From Aneurinibacillus aneurinilyticus ATCC 12856 (GTDB taxonomy: Bacteria; Bacillota; Bacilli; Aneurinibacillales; Aneurinibacillaceae): DNA of 64,000 nucleotides. Below are positions 1,254-8,725 of the stretch, piece after piece; position 1 is the stretch's first letter; each line of letters opens with the position of its first letter. Where the stretch lies: assembly GCF_000466385.1 (NCBI RefSeq), contig NZ_KE952693.1:1-64000 (forward strand), in the 5' to 3' direction. A program made the translations under genes and the position numbers. The notes under the pieces are model-generated. The model had not been told where the DNA came from. It was given only the letters and a program-made list of their open reading frames with translations, and did no database searches.

Positions 1254-1700
1254 GTGACAGATGAGCCGATTTCTTTGTTTCCTGAGATGAACCTTATCGA
1301 TATGGAGGAAACGGAAATATACGAAGGGGCTGCTTCAAATGAAAAATGGACGTACATGCTTGATTTTCGCAATCGATGCGCGGTTGTAGATGAGGATGGC
1401 CGCGCGCGCAAGACCAAGACGTATGCGGAATTCCTGATACAGACGGCGATGAAAATCCTCAACACCGAGCGTTTCCAGTATGTCGTATATAGCGAGGATA
1501 TTGGCGTTGAGAAATCAGAATGGCCGGGATGGGAAGACGTTGAAATTAAGCGGGATATGGAAGAAGCGTTGACCGCCCATCCCGAAATTCAGCGAGCCGA
1601 GGTGCTTTCCATAGAGCGAGACGCCCATGAAGTGTATGTGAGAATTCATTTGGTTGGGCTTGCCGGGACGGCAGAGGTAGAGGAGGCGATTAGACTATGA
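1254..1700 (+). CDS. DUF2634 (XkdS-like) phage baseplate protein
   Basis: The 148-residue product begins at GTG with a GAGG Shine-Dalgarno. It carries the pattern DFRNRCAVVDEDGRARKTKTYAEFLIQTAMKI..., followed by YSEDIGVE and the C-terminal R(A)EVLSIERDAHEVYVRIHL. These are features of the DUF2634/XkdS family, a small gp25-like baseplate wedge component of contractile-tail prophages. It overlaps the baseplate J gene by 4 bp (ATGA), the normal order in PBSX-like elements. Expected length is about 140 residues, so the gene looks intact. Confidence 0.75.
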   Translation: MTDEPISLFPEMNLIDMEETEIYEGAASNEKWTYMLDFRNRCAVVDEDGRARKTKTYAEFLIQTAMKILNTERFQYVVYSEDIGVEKSEWPGWEDVEIKRDMEEALTAHPEIQRAEVLSIERDAHEVYVRIHLVGLAGTAEVEEAIRL

Positions 1701-2515
1701 AACTTACAGACTTACCCAAGCTTCCTTATGTGCCTATTTTGGAAGAAACGCCAGATGACATTTATCAACGCTGGGTAAATCGGGCGATTGAAATCGCAAA
1801 GGAGCGTGGCTTACCCCCGCCGCCGACAGGCGAAGGGGAATATTTTTATGATTTGTGGTATCCGATTGCCCAGGAATACGCAGAACAGCAGGAATTATGG
1901 ACGTATGGCTTTATTCAGGCGTTTCCCATATGGGCTGATGGCGAATTCCTGGAAGCGCATGGCTGGGCGGATGGACTGGTTAAAAAGGAAGGCGAGGACG
2001 ATGATACATTCAGGCTTCGTCTTTTGGACCGCGCCTTTATCGAAGAAGGAAGCGGGCGGCGCAAGGATTATGAGCTATGGGTCAAAGAGGTTCCCGGCGT
2101 AGGCGGAGCGATTGCGATTGAAAAGGAGCGGCATGACAATTCTATCGATCTTTACCTCACAAATATGGATGGTCAGCCGATAACGCTGGAATTTGCTGAA
2201 CACGTAAAAGACTTGATGTGGGAGGATAAACGGATCGCCGGACATGACCTGGCCATCCATCCAGCACCTGTCTTTACGCTGCGAATTGAGGCAGCGCTTG
2301 AAACAACCGGAGATCGCACAGTTCTGGCGGAACAGATTAAAAAACGTATTCTTTCGTATGCGGAAGGACGAACCAGGCTTGTTTATAATTATGTTGCCGC
2401 GCTTCTTGTGGTAGATATGGGAGAGAATTATTCCGGCTTTACGATGAATGGAAAGACAGAAGATATGATTGTACCGACGAAATCAATCTTGCAGGTTGAG
2501 GTGGTATTATCATGA
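1697..2515 (+). CDS. Baseplate J-like protein (XkdT family)
   Basis: The product has 272 residues. The N-terminal half has the recurring Baseplate_J layout: a segment about EYAEQQELWTYGFIQAF, then ADGEFLEAHGWADGLVKKEGEDDDTFRLRLLDRAF and EEGSGRRKDYELWVKEVPGVGGA. The C-terminus (LVYNYVAALLVVDMGENYSGF) is the beta-rich end typical of the family. It is shorter than the about 350-residue XkdT of B. subtilis but the core is continuous. It forms the baseplate wedge of a contractile tail. It overlaps its neighbours by 4 bp on both sides, consistent with one transcript. Confidence 0.8.
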   Translation: MKLTDLPKLPYVPILEETPDDIYQRWVNRAIEIAKERGLPPPPTGEGEYFYDLWYPIAQEYAEQQELWTYGFIQAFPIWADGEFLEAHGWADGLVKKEGEDDDTFRLRLLDRAFIEEGSGRRKDYELWVKEVPGVGGAIAIEKERHDNSIDLYLTNMDGQPITLEFAEHVKDLMWEDKRIAGHDLAIHPAPVFTLRIEAALETTGDRTVLAEQIKKRILSYAEGRTRLVYNYVAALLVVDMGENYSGFTMNGKTEDMIVPTKSILQVEVVLS

Positions 2516-3156
2516 TTCCTCTCCGCTATCGAAAAGCATTGCCGCCATACTGGTACGAAATCGACATGGCGGAGCGTCACTTTTCCGTCATGGAAAAAGA
2601 GATGGATGACCGCGAGAAAATCACGAACGAGCTGCGGGACCAATTCATTCTCCAGCGGGCGACCTATGCGCTGGAAGTATGGGAATGGATTTACTTTCGT
2701 AAGGTGCAAACTGGTAGTTTTGCGGAGCGAAGAGAAGCCATACGAAAAAAGCGGTGGGCCAAGCGCCCGTTTAAGCTTCCTGTTCTTCGGCTTATGGGTT
2801 CACAGTCTGGAAAACTACTTGATGTTACGGAAGATTTTCTAAAGAAAGAAGTTTTGTTTGAATATGCAGCGGATGAAGCCATCAATCTTGTTCATCTTTA
2901 TAGGGATTTTGAATATATACGACCGGTTCATGTAAATCAAGCGGTAGCGGTAGCAAAAACGATGACAACTCCTATTATCGTTGGCGGGGATGCACGAAAC
3001 TTTGATGTAACCTACCGACGCTGCGGTGAAACTATTACCGAAGGGGTACAAGACGGACAACTGGCACAAGCTGGCGTAAACGTCTTAGGTGATGCTTATA
3101 GCTTTGACGTTCCATATCAACGTTGTGGAGAAGCCTATACAGGAGAGGGGGCGTAA
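2512..3156 (+). CDS. DUF2313 / YmfQ-like tail protein with duplicated C-terminal motif
   Basis: A 214-residue protein in the position of XkdU/YmfQ, directly after baseplate J. The N-terminus (LPPYWYEIDMAERHFSVM) and the RREAIRKKRW segment fit the DUF2313 tail family, which links baseplate and fibre. The C-terminal 60 residues hold a twofold repeat, GDARNFDVTYRRCGE and GDAYSFDVPYQRCGE, about 40 residues apart. It may be a fibre-attachment element. The GTAA stop lies only a few bases before the next start. Confidence 0.7.
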   Translation: MIPLRYRKALPPYWYEIDMAERHFSVMEKEMDDREKITNELRDQFILQRATYALEVWEWIYFRKVQTGSFAERREAIRKKRWAKRPFKLPVLRLMGSQSGKLLDVTEDFLKKEVLFEYAADEAINLVHLYRDFEYIRPVHVNQAVAVAKTMTTPIIVGGDARNFDVTYRRCGETITEGVQDGQLAQAGVNVLGDAYSFDVPYQRCGEAYTGEGA

Positions 3157-3159
3157 ATC

Positions 3160-3468
3160 TTGGCTGAAGGAACGGTTATACAACCGAGATACTTAGATGT
3201 TATTCGCGATGCCGCAGATGCTGCCGTCGCAAAATCACTGGTCACTATCAATGGGGAACAAAAAGAATTTCCGATTTATCGTACCTTGGTAGATGGTTAT
3301 AAAATTCGAAAGTACATCTACATTCAAAATGACACTGGACATATCACCAATGCCGTGCTGTTGGACCATACCGGAAACCAATTAGCCATTAAGACTCACA
3401 ACGTACAAAAGGGTACCGATGGCTTTGTGATTTGTTTTGAACTTGAGATTAAACTGGAGGTGAAATAA
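3160..3468 (+). CDS. Small phage tail-module protein (hypothetical)
   Basis: A 102-residue product starting at TTG, with GGAGAGGGGG about 10 bp upstream. The N-terminus (IQPRYLDVIRDAADAAVAKSL) is helical; the remainder is predicted beta (YIYIQNDTGHITNAVLLDHTGNQLAIKTHNVQKG). No named family is recognised. It lies between the DUF2313 gene and a fibre gene, abutting the latter exactly, so it is part of the tail-fibre transcript. Low-similarity fibre accessory proteins are common here. Confidence 0.6.
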   Translation: MAEGTVIQPRYLDVIRDAADAAVAKSLVTINGEQKEFPIYRTLVDGYKIRKYIYIQNDTGHITNAVLLDHTGNQLAIKTHNVQKGTDGFVICFELEIKLEVK

Positions 3469-4035
3469 ATGGCCGGATACGTACCCATTCGTTTTAAAGA
3501 TACGATTAGAGACCCTATCACAGGGGATATCATCGAGCGAGGAACACCATTAAATCAGGTAAACCTAGATCATGTGGAAGATGGAATCCTTTTAGCTCAT
3601 GAGAAACTAGAGTTAATGGAGTTAGAAATGGCCCGTATGAAAGTCTATATGGAAATTGATGGACGGGTTACAGGAGGAAAAGGGACATTTTTTGAAACAA
3701 TGGACGGTGTGGAGCCACACCTAATGCGAAGGGAGACAGCAGAGGCCATGCTTCCCGCTCCTGTCAACGCAAGCCAAGAACCAATTACTCTTTCTGTCTT
3801 TATGATAGACGATTCTTTTACAAGTGGAGAGGAAGCAACCATATATGATGATGAGTACTGGGAGGAAGTCGTCATACAGGCTGTTGAAGGAGATAAGCTT
3901 ACTCTGAATCACCTGCAGAACAGCTACAAAAAAGGAGCCATCATTTCTCGTAGCCCTTCCAAGCCTGATCCAGTAACCAAAACGATGAAACCGGGGGTGT
4001 TCAAGACGTATGATTTGTCTTTCCGAGAAGTATAA
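3469..4035 (+). CDS. Phage tail fibre-type protein
   Basis: The 188-residue product starts YVPIRFKDTIRDPITGDIIERGTPLNQVNLDHVEDGILLAHEK, matching the N-terminal 'F.D.I.D...G..I..GTPLN..NLN..E.GI' pattern found in many Bacillales prophage fibre proteins. A short helix (LELMELEMARMKVYMEIDG) follows. The C-terminal half is beta-rich and acidic. Its last 26 bp overlap the start of the next, larger gene in another frame, so the two are probably coupled in translation. It probably acts as the baseplate-proximal part of the fibre. Confidence 0.7.
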   Translation: MAGYVPIRFKDTIRDPITGDIIERGTPLNQVNLDHVEDGILLAHEKLELMELEMARMKVYMEIDGRVTGGKGTFFETMDGVEPHLMRRETAEAMLPAPVNASQEPITLSVFMIDDSFTSGEEATIYDDEYWEEVVIQAVEGDKLTLNHLQNSYKKGAIISRSPSKPDPVTKTMKPGVFKTYDLSFREV

Positions 4036-6208
4036 AACAGGTACGTTGCTCGAAGTGTCCGGGTGTTCGATGGAGCCGACGTTGTGGGATGGGCAGATTG
4101 TTGAAGTGATGGAAGGCTGCCATGATGGCGATATCGTTGTTGCTGAGTATGAAGGACGGTTGATAGTGAAACGATTAGTCGGAGATAAGTTGCTGGGAGA
4201 TAACCGGGCATTATCTACCGACTTTTTTGTTGCCGATGTATGTATCCTTGGACGGGCAGAAGTTCGGACAAAAGAGGAACTGGAAGAAAGAGGGGTACAG
4301 ATTGATAATCTCCAGTCACCGGCAAGAGCTTATGCTGCTTCCCCCATCATTATAACTAATGCTATTGCCTATTGTAGAGATAACTACGATAGAACAGGAG
4401 ACGGCTCGGTTTACAATATAACGCTTAATCCAGATACCAAAAATATAACCGTTAATTTTACGGTTGAATCTAATGGGATTTATCAGTATGCCTTTTTTGA
4501 TGAACCTAAGCCCATCAATATATATGTAGATGGAAAAAATAAAGGTAGTAATGGAACTGCTAGAGTCGTTACCATGGATAAAGTTCAAGGCTCGTCTTCG
4601 TATCAGCTTTCACCGAATGACAGGGGCAAAGATATAACCTTTGAAGCACAGGGCAAAGACGTGAGGGTAGGTATTCGAATTCCTGCATCTTCTATCCCAC
4701 AAAGCATTTTTAACTCAGTACCAACAGCCGCCCTGGATTCGGTTATGAATATAATCTTATCCGAAGGTATTTGCAGCCTATCTGGAACCGTAAATGACCC
4801 GGATGGAGATACTGTAACTATTCGTGCAACCATAGCAGGTATCACTAAACAAACAACTGTAAAGGGATCTGGAGGATGGACACTCTCATGGCCTGTATCA
4901 GACTTGTCACAAGGACAGTATTCAAATGTCGTAATCACCGCAACAGACGGGAATGGCGGTACTGCCACGGTGACATACACCGGGACCATTACCATCGATA
5001 AAACGAAGCCTACTATCTCTGTATCAGGCGTTGCAGAAGGACAAACCTATACATCGGTTACGCCGACCTTCTCCGCAACAGATACAGGCGGCTCAGGCTT
5101 GCAGAGCTGCACCGCAACATTGAATGGAAACGCCTTTACATCCGGCACACCAATTACGGTAGGCGGAAGTTATACACTGATAGTGACAGCTAAGGACAAT
5201 GCCGGGAACGTTAGTACGCAGACGATTAACTTTAAAATCAACAGTGCGCCAACGGTTGAAGTCACGACTGCAAACAATCAAACGCTGTATGAAGGGGATT
5301 CTCTTATCATCTCTGGTAGCGCGAACGATGTGAATGCAGGAAATGCGCTTATTGTAAAGTTGAAGTTTGATGAAGAATCGGAAAAGAATATCCTGGTTAC
5401 CACATCGACTGGAACGCCACAACCGATCAGTTACACCGTCACATTTAAGAATGGTCGATTGTACGATGCAGCAGGCAACCCAATTACACCAGAGCTGAAC
5501 AAAGATGTGGTCCATAGTTTCACGGTGTATGCCAAGGACGACAGCGGCGCAGAATCACCCCGCATTACACGTCAATTTATGGTTGTACCTAACCGAAACC
5601 CACTTATTAGTATCAACCCATTGGAACCGTTAACCAATATTGTTCCGACCGATACGGTTACTATTAGTGGAACGGTAAATGATCCAGACGAAGGCGACAC
5701 CGTAACAATGGAATACAAGCTAAATCAAGGACCATTCCAACCTGTTGCCATGCAAGGGGAAACATGGTCTTTTTCTATTTCAGCAGGTCGTTTACGAGAT
5801 GGAGAAAACATCGTCGAACTAAAAGCGCTTGATAACAAGGGCGGTGTGACTGTAAAACGAATGGCGATTGACCAAACGCCCCGGATAGTACCGGTAAAGG
5901 TTTCACAGTCCCGGTATATGATTCTACCACCAAAAGGAGAAATGAAAGGTTTGGTGGCCTGGATTCAGCGGAAGAAGGGGGACCTGCAGATCAAAGGCGA
6001 TTTGTCTATTGTAGCAGTTGGACAGCCAGAGTCCTTTATCACGATGGAGAAAACGTCAGCGGAATTATCACACGCCCTTGATGAGGACCAGTTCATAGGC
6101 AGTGTAGAAACATCTGGACAAAACGTGACCATCAAACTGACAGAGACGCGCACTGATGCCTTAAATTCATCGGCTGCCATTACAAAAATTGCAGGGGTGA
6201 TTAACTAA
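4010..6208 (+). CDS. Signal peptidase (S26) domain fused to Ig-like phage tail protein
   Basis: The 732-residue product joins two unrelated parts. Residues 16-86 carry the type I signal peptidase boxes in order: GCSMEPTLWDGQ (nucleophile Ser20), GDIVV (40-44), IVKRLVG (general base Lys54) and GDNRALSTD (63-71) followed by ILGRAEV. There is no membrane anchor. Just after it, at residues 107-109, lies AYA followed by ASP, an AXA motif like those such enzymes cut. From about residue 210 come several Ig/cadherin-like beta modules (SGTVNDPDGDTVTIRA, TAKDNAGNVSTQTINF, SGTVNDPDEGDTVTME), then a C-terminal beta domain ending AAITKIAGVIN. It overlaps the previous gene by 26 bp and the next by 1 bp. 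S24-type (LexA-like) peptidase is the alternative reading; the GDNR box favours S26. Confidence 0.75.
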   Translation: MICLSEKYKTGTLLEVSGCSMEPTLWDGQIVEVMEGCHDGDIVVAEYEGRLIVKRLVGDKLLGDNRALSTDFFVADVCILGRAEVRTKEELEERGVQIDNLQSPARAYAASPIIITNAIAYCRDNYDRTGDGSVYNITLNPDTKNITVNFTVESNGIYQYAFFDEPKPINIYVDGKNKGSNGTARVVTMDKVQGSSSYQLSPNDRGKDITFEAQGKDVRVGIRIPASSIPQSIFNSVPTAALDSVMNIILSEGICSLSGTVNDPDGDTVTIRATIAGITKQTTVKGSGGWTLSWPVSDLSQGQYSNVVITATDGNGGTATVTYTGTITIDKTKPTISVSGVAEGQTYTSVTPTFSATDTGGSGLQSCTATLNGNAFTSGTPITVGGSYTLIVTAKDNAGNVSTQTINFKINSAPTVEVTTANNQTLYEGDSLIISGSANDVNAGNALIVKLKFDEESEKNILVTTSTGTPQPISYTVTFKNGRLYDAAGNPITPELNKDVVHSFTVYAKDDSGAESPRITRQFMVVPNRNPLISINPLEPLTNIVPTDTVTISGTVNDPDEGDTVTMEYKLNQGPFQPVAMQGETWSFSISAGRLRDGENIVELKALDNKGGVTVKRMAIDQTPRIVPVKVSQSRYMILPPKGEMKGLVAWIQRKKGDLQIKGDLSIVAVGQPESFITMEKTSAELSHALDEDQFIGSVETSGQNVTIKLTETRTDALNSSAAITKIAGVIN

Positions 6209-6414
6209 TGGGAGAGTTGAAGATCCGCCCACGTAATGAAGATGGTTCTTTAGGAGAATTTGAGACCGTGTTCCCAAAAGAAGGAATGTCACCAGAGGAA
6301 GAAATCACGGTTCTCAAAAAGGAATTAGCCAAGGAAAAACAGCGCAACAAGGACAACAGCTTCGCTATTATGGAGTTGTACGAGGCGCTTGAGGCTATAA
6401 AGGGAGGACAATAA
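6208..6414 (+). CDS. Small phage protein after the fibre gene
   Basis: A 68-residue acidic protein; residues 30-55 (EEEITVLKKELAKEKQRNKD) form a predicted coiled coil. Its ATG overlaps the stop of the tail fusion gene. It occupies the same slot as the 65-residue gene at 546-743 in the upstream module. No specific function is recognised; gene order points to a tail-fibre accessory role. Confidence 0.6.
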   Translation: MGELKIRPRNEDGSLGEFETVFPKEGMSPEEEITVLKKELAKEKQRNKDNSFAIMELYEALEAIKGGQ

Positions 6415-6873: not shown

Positions 6874-7302
6874 ATGGCAGTTGTAAAAGCCACTAACTCG
6901 GATATTAACCTTTTGGCAAGATTGCTTAGGGCAGAGGCTGAAGGGGAAGGGAACTTGGGCATGCTGCTTGTCGGAAACGTAGGAATCAACCGCGTACGTT
7001 CGAATTGTTCAGATTTTAAGGGACTTCGTACCATTCCGCAAATGATTTATCAACCGCATGCATTCGAGGCTGTTACACACGGTTACTTTTATCAAAGGGC
7101 AAGGGAAAACGAAAGGCGCTTGGCTCGTCGGGTGATTAATGGAGAAAGCTTTTGGCCTGGAAAATATAGCTTATGGTATTTTAGACCGCCGGGCGAGTGT
7201 CCTGAGGAGTGGTATAATCAACCCTTCGTGGGACGTTTTAAAGCTCACTGCTTTTATGAGCCAACAGCTGAAACGTGTCAAAACGTGTATAACGTATTTT
7301 AA
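6874..7302 (+). CDS. cwlJ: Spore cortex-lytic cell wall hydrolase CwlJ
   Basis: The 142-residue product matches the usual CwlJ length and its signature segments: LLARLLRAEAEGEG, MLLVGNVGINRVR, CSDFKGLRTIPQMIYQP and SLWYFRPPGECP. The catalytic Glu lies in the RAEAEGEG helix of the SleB/CwlJ hydrolase fold. CwlJ works with GerQ in spore cortex breakdown on germination; no gerQ is nearby. It has its own ribosome binding site (GAGGTGAAG) and a terminator right after it. Upstream, CATAGTATA (6837-6845) fits the CATAnnnTA -10 of sporulation sigma K, though weakly. It lies between the phage tail and lysis genes, so it is a host-type gene carried in, or used by, the prophage. Confidence 0.9.
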   Translation: MAVVKATNSDINLLARLLRAEAEGEGNLGMLLVGNVGINRVRSNCSDFKGLRTIPQMIYQPHAFEAVTHGYFYQRARENERRLARRVINGESFWPGKYSLWYFRPPGECPEEWYNQPFVGRFKAHCFYEPTAETCQNVYNVF

Positions 7303-7359
7303 ACGAGGAATCCAACGTGAGCCGAAAAATCATATATTCCAAGCTTTTTATATTTGTCT

Positions 7360-7385
7360 GGAGTCGCATTTGCGGCTCCTTTTTT
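7360..7385 (+). terminator. Intrinsic terminator after cwlJ
   Basis: GGAGTCGC and GCGGCTCC form an 8-bp stem with one mismatch and a 4-base loop (7360-7379), followed by six T. It separates cwlJ transcription from the lysis cassette that starts 35 bp further on. Confidence 0.8.
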
Positions 7386-7419
7386 ATGTTCACGCCGAAA
7401 AGGCGGTAAGGAGGATGTT

Positions 7420-7770
7420 ATGCCAGATGTAAAAACAGCGCAGCAAATTGCAGAATCACAATACGCCTTTGGCATTCTTTTCGTCGTTCTTTTTCTTGTC
7501 TCCATTACTGCCGTAGCCTTTATTTTTAAGGATTTAAAACGGGAGAATAAGGAAAGGGAACAGGAGCTGAAGGACCTTATTGCCGAGCAAAAGCAGGAAA
7601 GCAAAGAGCGTGAGGCTAAGCTGATGGCCCATCTTGAGAGAACAAATGAAAGCTACGAACGAACATCAGAAACTTTGGAGAAGATTCAGCATGGACTGGC
7701 TACATTGGAGGCCAATGTGAAGGATGTCTGGGTTGAAATCAAATATTTGAAACGGGGGACGGAGCAGTGA
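7420..7770 (+). CDS. BhlA/UviB family holin-like protein
   Basis: The chosen ATG at 7420 follows AAGGAGG at 8 bp; an in-frame TTG at 7354 lies inside the cwlJ terminator and is rejected. The 116-residue product has one membrane segment (FGILFVVLFLVSITAVAFIF, residues 15-34) and then a long charged coiled coil (KRENKEREQELKDLI). This layout is that of BhlA/UviB small holin-like proteins. It overlaps the amidase gene by 4 bp, giving a lysis cassette. It probably permeabilises the membrane or helps release the amidase. Confidence 0.75.
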   Translation: MPDVKTAQQIAESQYAFGILFVVLFLVSITAVAFIFKDLKRENKEREQELKDLIAEQKQESKEREAKLMAHLERTNESYERTSETLEKIQHGLATLEANVKDVWVEIKYLKRGTEQ

Positions 7771-8540
7771 GTAAAGTGGTAGTTATCGATCCCGGACATG
7801 GGCTTCCCGACCCGGGAGCCTGCGGAAACGGTTTACAGGAGCATGAGCGCGCCTTTTGCCTGGCGCAGTTAGTACAGAATGTGCTGACCCGCCATGGAGT
7901 AGCCGTTTTTCTCACCCGGAACAGTGAACGCTCATTATCGAATGCGACGAATCTGAAAACAAATAAAAACGAAGACCTGGCAGCGCGCCAGCGATTCAGC
8001 AACAGCAAAACTACAGATTTCTTCCTTTCCTTGCATATGAATGCTAGCAACGATCCGACAGCAAACGGGTATGAAACGCTTTGTTATTCGCAGAATGGTC
8101 AGATTGAGGTGCTGCATACCGCAGTGAAGGCATTCCTGCAGCAGCATGGATTAAAGGATCGGGGCATTAAAATACGAACCAATCTGGCAGTCCTGAAGGT
8201 CAGGGCCAAGGCAGCCTTGCTTGAGTGCTTTTTCATAACGAATCCGAAGGAAGCAGCATTGATGAGCGATGCTGCTTTTTTGCTTGATTTGGCGGAAGCC
8301 ATTGGTAAGGGTGTATTAGCAGCGATCGGTATTGCCTACGTACCAGTAAAAAAGCCAGCAGCGCCACAGCCTATTCAACCGAAGGAGGAGCAGTTGATGA
8401 AAACGGAAGATGCCAACAAAATTATCCGTATCCTACAGGATAGATGGAACATGGCAACATGTCAGGACGAAAAGAAGGAAATAGGTCGGCTTGCAGATGA
8501 GGTGCGCGTGGCGGCCGGGATGAAGAAGGTGAACAGCTAA
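7767..8540 (+). CDS. N-acetylmuramoyl-L-alanine amidase, phage endolysin
   Basis: The 257-residue protein starts at GTG overlapping the holin-like gene. Residues 1-190 are an Amidase_3 domain: VVVIDPGHGLPDPGA (zinc His), QEHERAF (zinc Glu), LSLHMNAS (zinc His) and LLECFFITNPKEA (catalytic Glu). Residues 195-257 are a proline-rich linker and a short helical C-terminus, possibly the wall-binding part. It cleaves the peptide from N-acetylmuramic acid in peptidoglycan. It has no signal peptide, so exit depends on the flanking holins. Confidence 0.9.
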   Translation: MSKVVVIDPGHGLPDPGACGNGLQEHERAFCLAQLVQNVLTRHGVAVFLTRNSERSLSNATNLKTNKNEDLAARQRFSNSKTTDFFLSLHMNASNDPTANGYETLCYSQNGQIEVLHTAVKAFLQQHGLKDRGIKIRTNLAVLKVRAKAALLECFFITNPKEAALMSDAAFLLDLAEAIGKGVLAAIGIAYVPVKKPAAPQPIQPKEEQLMKTEDANKIIRILQDRWNMATCQDEKKEIGRLADEVRVAAGMKKVNS

Positions 8541-8725
8541 TGAAAGAACGATTGAAAGACCCGTTCCTGTGGGCCGGTTTTAGCGGATTGCTGTATCAGG
8601 TTTTGAGTATAAAAGGGATCGTTGTCCCACAAGGCCTGTGGGATGTCGGACTGGATCTTGTTAGTTATACCGTTATCGGCGTTGGCATAGTATCGGGGTA
8701 TACCGGGAATGCGAAGAAGGAATAA
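8540..8725 (+). CDS. Small phage holin
   Basis: A 61-residue protein whose ATG overlaps the amidase stop. It contains two predicted hydrophobic segments (FLWAGFSGLLYQVL and LVSYTVIGVGIVSGY) separated by a short loop, and a lysine-rich C-terminus (NAKKE). This is the plan of the phi LC3 / small class II phage holins. It is the last gene before a strong terminator, marking the end of the lysis operon and probably the right part of the element. Confidence 0.75.
   Translation: MKERLKDPFLWAGFSGLLYQVLSIKGIVVPQGLWDVGLDLVSYTVIGVGIVSGYTGNAKKE

Follow-up and report, generated by a model that had tools for sequence, protein, structure and literature searches.

Why would a tail fibre carry a protease at its N-terminus? 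The question is raised by a 64,000-nucleotide (nt) stretch of the Aneurinibacillus aneurinilyticus ATCC 12856 genome (contig NZ_KE952693.1, positions 1 to 64,000; hereafter the window), where the final fibre gene in an operon for a contractile tail opens with signal-peptidase-like boxes. The original prediction had described this open reading frame (ORF) as a type I signal peptidase (SPase I) fused to a phage tail protein, with an AxA motif right behind the peptidase. The fusion itself was borne out, as that of a clan-SF Ser/Lys peptidase with a tail protein, but the SPase I identity is not proven by the sequence comparisons. The leading idea is still self-processing, to which we give an even chance: fibre residues 1-109 would form an N-terminal self-cleaving module that is removed during fibre maturation.

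A Ser/Lys protease domain heads the fibre

All the predicted boxes, SMEPTL (Ser20), VKRLVG (Lys54), GDNR..S (63-69) and ILGRAEV (residues 79-85), were found in the translation of 4010-6208. In Pfam, residues 12-64 matched Peptidase_S24 (PF00717) with 33.7 bits against a cut-off of 23.3, whereas Peptidase_S26 (PF10502) reached 20.1 bits and stayed under its cut-off of 22.9. The curated SPase I model of NCBIfam (TIGR02227) was far under its threshold (18.3 bits vs 47), as were the NCBIfam LexA model and the nickel-superoxide dismutase maturation protease model TIGR02754 (13.3 bits vs 63.25). The latter describes a stand-alone enzyme, unlike the fibre module; like the module, this enzyme is a small, soluble S26-like protease lacking an anchor.

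The domain thus shares traits with two families. As in S24 peptidases (LexA, UmuD, CI), whose hallmark is self-cleavage, there is a Ser/Lys dyad, the Pfam match is above cut-off, and the nearest solved folds belong to this family. Unlike them, it stands at the N-terminus of a fibre, its candidate cleavage site lies on the C-terminal rather than the N-terminal side, and no DNA-binding or cleavage region precedes it, the domain beginning within residues 1-13 of the ORFs. With SPase I (S26A) it has in common SMEPTL, VKRLVG, the box E pattern GDNRxxSxD (GDNRALSTD in the window, GDN..S or GxN..S in other lineages), an AxA-type site and a structural match with a Z score of 9.0. It differs from SPase I in being part of a tail protein, in falling under both curated cut-offs, and in having no visible transmembrane anchor; inspection of residues 1-110 revealed no hydrophobic segment, in agreement with what had been noted earlier.

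An AlphaFold2 (AF2) model of the window fibre gave a mostly confident core at residues 13-95, with LexA C-terminal domains (Z 9.1), lambda repressor, UmuD', SipA (Z 6.5) and Escherichia coli SPase I (Z 6.3) as the best structural neighbours. The model of a distant homologue from a second lineage described below (contig L094; mean predicted local distance difference test score, pLDDT, 85) matched LexA (Z 12.1), UmuD' (11.4), SipA (9.9) and SPase I (9.0) more closely, where unrelated entries scored near 5. Modelling therefore points to a LexA/UmuD'/SipA/SPase I-like fold. With LexA and UmuD' as nearest folds, and given that tailocin-like and prophage loci are induced by the SOS response, one could imagine that RecA stimulates the fibre to cleave itself, as it does with LexA, CI and UmuD, so that fibre maturation would be coupled to the SOS state under which the loci are induced. 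We regard this as very unlikely, since the LexA-type site is N-terminal to the domain, the candidate site of the fibre is C-terminal to it, and the fibre box E is S26-like.

Ser20, Lys54, Gly63, Asn65 and Ser69 (window numbering) were invariant down to ~40% identity in nine aligned domains, most of which are closely related and two of which come from secreted-looking Rossellomorea proteins. The core is under purifying selection (omega well below 1 in every pair with estimable synonymous divergence, mostly 0.13-0.32). Hence, rather than an S24-only match with lost active-site residues, the searches found the catalytic residues intact. A chance match was ruled out, because S24 scored above its cut-off and fibres homologous to this one begin with the same domain in other genomes. 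Judged by sequence and modelled fold, the front end of the fibre is a genuine clan-SF Ser/Lys protease domain, and its activity is predicted.

Recurrence in two bacterial lineages

Copies 76-79% identical over the first 118 residues were found in the same genome, in a congener and in IMG/VR contigs. In the congener (G005), the fusion lies inside a complete-looking prophage; sequence and position were the sole criteria for recognising its terminase and portal. Another class of the same phylum contributes three genomes (G633, represented by L094; G824; and G583) that encode this fusion where a contractile-tail operon ends, with a domain ~50% identical; the G583 ORF runs off its contig. The fusion is thus known from two bacterial classes, in tailocin-like loci and in a complete-looking prophage. 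An assembly artefact was considered and rejected, as the fusion is present in several independent assemblies. The idea that the domain is a moron-derived addition was dropped, since the module recurs in fibres that are homologous across two bacterial lineages.

Outside the two genera, no fusion was found in 399 Bacilli and 398 phylum genomes, which yielded only short LexA-like or SPase-like ORFs or nothing. Of two scans of genome contigs, one returned nothing and the other 29 repressors, SPases and small S26-like enzymes of ordinary appearance and no fusion; GenBank phages contained nothing related to the domain apart from CI-like repressors at E ~0.1-1.

A related domain (profile match of 65 bits) was found on a megaplasmid of Rossellomorea sp. 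AcN35-11 (CP128836.1). It is carried, just after a signal-peptide-like segment, by two neighbouring proteins of 1846 and 1833 residues that look secreted (positions 207908-219074, corresponding to L010 4279-15445). Like the fibre, both keep the three catalytic residues, have an AxA-type motif (AHA) after the domain and continue into a large beta-rich remainder. Unlike the fibre, they look secreted, contain RCC1 repeats and adjoin type IV pilus genes, with no tail operon seen. Nothing close to the Rossellomorea domain was found in viral contigs or other plasmids. These proteins suggest that the domain may function outside cells, as it would if the protease acted on a cell-surface substrate of the target bacterium, an effector role also raised in the original prediction. 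We consider this role very improbable: the module precedes the variable domain and a potential cut site separates the two, no candidate substrate was found, and SPase-type enzymes act on membrane-associated exported precursors.

No published description of an S24/S26 domain on a tail fibre was found in the literature searched, in which coverage of subscription journals was incomplete. To our knowledge, fibre self-processing uses C-terminal intramolecular chaperones, which, unlike the fibre module, stand at the C-terminus and act in trimer folding, and whose fold we take to be unrelated. In K1F and T5, such a chaperone is a self-processing domain of the tailspike or fibre that is removed from the mature receptor-binding protein (PMC10579305). 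In polymorphic toxins, ZU5 and PrsW are examples of autoproteolytic modules at the N-terminus (PMC3482391). The window fibre shows a known protease fold in a new location, where it has probably kept its known habit of cleaving itself. If true, receptor-binding proteins would be matured or masked in a new way, by an N-terminal module placed before interchangeable domains in distant hosts, which would help explain the exchange of fibre domains in tailocins and phages.

The linker, the candidate cut site and the domain behind it

Every fibre fusion compared has a common anatomy: the protease module, an unrelated middle domain and an Ig-like stalk. Among six fibres, the module was homologous in all pairs and so was the stalk, if weakly for L008 against the second lineage or L007, while the middle domain came in five kinds, related only between L007 and L008. 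The predicted beta-sandwich tail protein behind the candidate cleavage site corresponds to the Ig-like repeats (Big_13, Big_3_3) of this stalk. No Pfam family scored above its cut-off in the middle domain of the window fibre; in the G633 fibre, the middle domain (L094 6274-7077) is made of near-identical tandem repeats of ~65 residues each. In other tail fibres it is the most variable part that binds the target; on this analogy, the variable domain behind the module is the likeliest target-recognition domain.

The AYA-ASP site announced earlier is present at residues 107-112, and a second AxA, ARA at 105-107, overlaps it. Clan SF enzymes favour Ala or Gly at P1, and a strict [AV]xA was found 19-28 residues after ILG in all nine linkers (9/9). 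Between G824 and G583, DNA identity continues as far as the codons for AEA, the predicted cut site, and is at background level beyond them; as read from these sequences, the edge of the variable part and the predicted cut site fall together in one lineage. In the genus of the window, homology ends slightly earlier, at residues 101-106. In the window, DNA homology to the other copies from this genus ends before the AYA, which, being outside the shared sequence, was not simply inherited.

Under self-processing, the LexA/signal-peptidase-type Ser/Lys core would cut its own fibre chain after the AxA located 19-28 residues downstream, in the window after Ala109 or possibly Ala107. The cut would free the variable domain and remove the protease before or during attachment of the fibre to the baseplate, with maturation or unmasking of the variable domain as its presumed purpose. 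We infer that the domain is catalytic and that it would cut in cis rather than on a neighbour. A more elaborate and quite tentative version, which we would not expect to hold in full, is that the module is a detachable protease cap at the fibre's N-terminal tip, where it masks the variable recognition domain and from which it removes itself at AxA at a set stage of assembly or release. Recognition domains could then be swapped between tails, each newcomer being placed behind the same self-removing module; the polarity would be opposite to that of the usual tail fibre, and the related secreted adhesin-like proteins might use the same trick.

The protease could also work in trans, remaining attached to the fibre and processing a neighbouring tail protein (e.g., a tail-assembly protein or the proposed anchor described below). 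It is encoded beside baseplate genes, and the overlap of its ORF with the preceding one suggests coupled translation; however, the recurrent AxA is located in the fibre's own linker and one tethered copy per fibre would be an odd arrangement, making this explanation unlikely.

Several points weigh against self-cleavage. The statistic in its favour, a background of [AV]xA per 35-residue segment of these proteins of 0.15-0.47 with a product over four roughly independent linkers of ~0.002, is post hoc, drawn from few independent linkers and suggestive only. The linker has low confidence in the window AF2 model, the L094 model places AEA in a weakly predicted helix instead of an extended strand, and neither model has the AxA site docked in the active site. 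A recombination hot spot at the linker would likewise end homology there. The fusion is carried by 3 of the 10 sampled genomes of the second lineage's family, or 3 of 9 when its genus alone is counted, and by 2 of the 7 of the window's genus, and this patchy carriage means that the module is dispensable. Finally, cutting off an N-terminal module leaves the attachment of the fibre open, the proposed anchor being a separate ORF.

The ORF preceding the fibre encodes 188, 90 or 120 amino acids (aa) in the loci examined, and the fibre ORF overlaps or closely follows it (in the window by 26 nt, with GGGGGTG located 10 nt 5' of the ATG). The 188- and 90-aa proteins have a short motif in common with the N-terminus of a 1059-aa protease-less fibre, at weak significance (E ~1e-4 and 0.003). 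This fibre, which lacks the protease module and has the anchor motif in its own chain, lies on contig L116 (G400, reverse strand), in the same position in that contig's second cassette. As the anchor motif is fused in the protease-less fibre, the module-bearing fibre seems to have its anchor split off, and the preceding ORF, in all three sizes, looks like a separate anchor.

This arrangement would also suit a non-catalytic adaptor, that is, an S24/S26 fold that docks the fibre onto the separate anchor or the baseplate while its active site is a relic. The SPase homologue SipA of Streptococcus pyogenes, among the structural matches (Z 9.9), is essential for pilus polymerisation according to its PDB title, the proposed anchor is encoded separately, overlapping or just before the fibre ORF, and the anchor is fused in the fibre lacking the protease. 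Yet a pure scaffold would not need Ser, Lys, GxN and the box E Ser, which are invariant in the nine copies (mostly close relatives), and the end of homology at the AxA site would be left unexplained. We therefore see the adaptor as possible but doubtful.

The tail locus around the fibre

The features of the window are listed in Table 1.

Table 1 Fibre gene, its parts and the neighbouring genes in the window.
Feature	Position	Strand	Basis
3' end of upstream, first protease-fused fibre (5' part on contig C64)	1..549	+	matches end of the L008 601-aa fibre
Sheath initiator, second baseplate cassette	1254..1700	+	PF10934, 54.9 bits
Baseplate J-like protein	1697..2515	+	PF04865, 52.5 bits
Mu gp48-like tail protein	2512..3156	+	PF10076, 33.6 bits, below cut-off; phrog_521, 69.8 bits
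102-aa tail-operon protein	3160..3468	+	phrog_7177
188-aa ORF, proposed separate fibre-anchor protein	3469..4035	+	overlaps fibre start; residues 15-53 resemble N-terminus of 1059-aa fibre
Fibre ORF: protease module, variable domain, Ig-like stalk (732 aa)	4010..6208	+	translation, Pfam, six-fibre comparison
S24/S26 protease core, residues 13-86	4046..4267	+	PF00717 above cut-off; confident AF2 core; LexA C-domain Z 9.1
Ser20 codon, proposed nucleophile (SMEPTL)	4067..4069	+	invariant, nine aligned copies
Lys54 codon, proposed general base (VKRLVG)	4169..4171	+	invariant, nine aligned copies
Box E-like GDNRALS, residues 63-69	4196..4216	+	G63, N65, S69 invariant, nine copies
Linker after core, residues 87-106, helix then low confidence	4268..4327	+	alignment, AF2
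AYA, residues 107-109, predicted P3-P1 of self-cleavage	4328..4336	+	recurrent [AV]xA motif
Variable middle domain, residues 110 to ~240	4337..4729	+	no convincing similarity to middles of other five fibres
Conserved Ig-like stalk and C-terminal part, residues ~241-732	4730..6205	+	Big_13, Big_3_3 above cut-off; phrog_21129; homologous stalks in other fibres
68-aa ORF after fibre	6208..6414	+	ORF list
Lysis block: cell wall hydrolase, membrane/coiled-coil ORF, amidase, small holin-like ORF	6874..8725	+	PF07486, PF01520

Contig C64 of the same genome encodes a repressor and a regulator. Immediately behind them come sheath, tube, tape-measure and the first baseplate cassette, which ends in the second protease-fused fibre. 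C64 and the window thus hold two baseplate cassettes in tandem, each closed by such a fibre. The two contigs would join across a gap of ~285 nt, as suggested by the metagenome virus contig L008, the sole bridge between them. Sheath, tube, baseplate and lysis proteins of the locus were recognised by PF04984, PF09393, PF10934, PF04865, PF07486 and PF01520, and the small ORF of the lysis block may have a holin-like role, given its position and size.

Between the repressor and the lysis block (C64 and the window), and likewise in G633, head, terminase and integrase genes were not seen, as judged from gene order and the Pfam matches of part of the proteins. The locus is called tailocin-like, as had been proposed, because no head or terminase genes were seen in this stretch, part of whose ORFs were scanned. 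On L094, positions 3018-5992 contain several further fibre-like ORFs and a 120-aa ORF with the motif LGLxKPLGNExVxRQAYxENL, which also occurs in an upstream 80-aa ORF.
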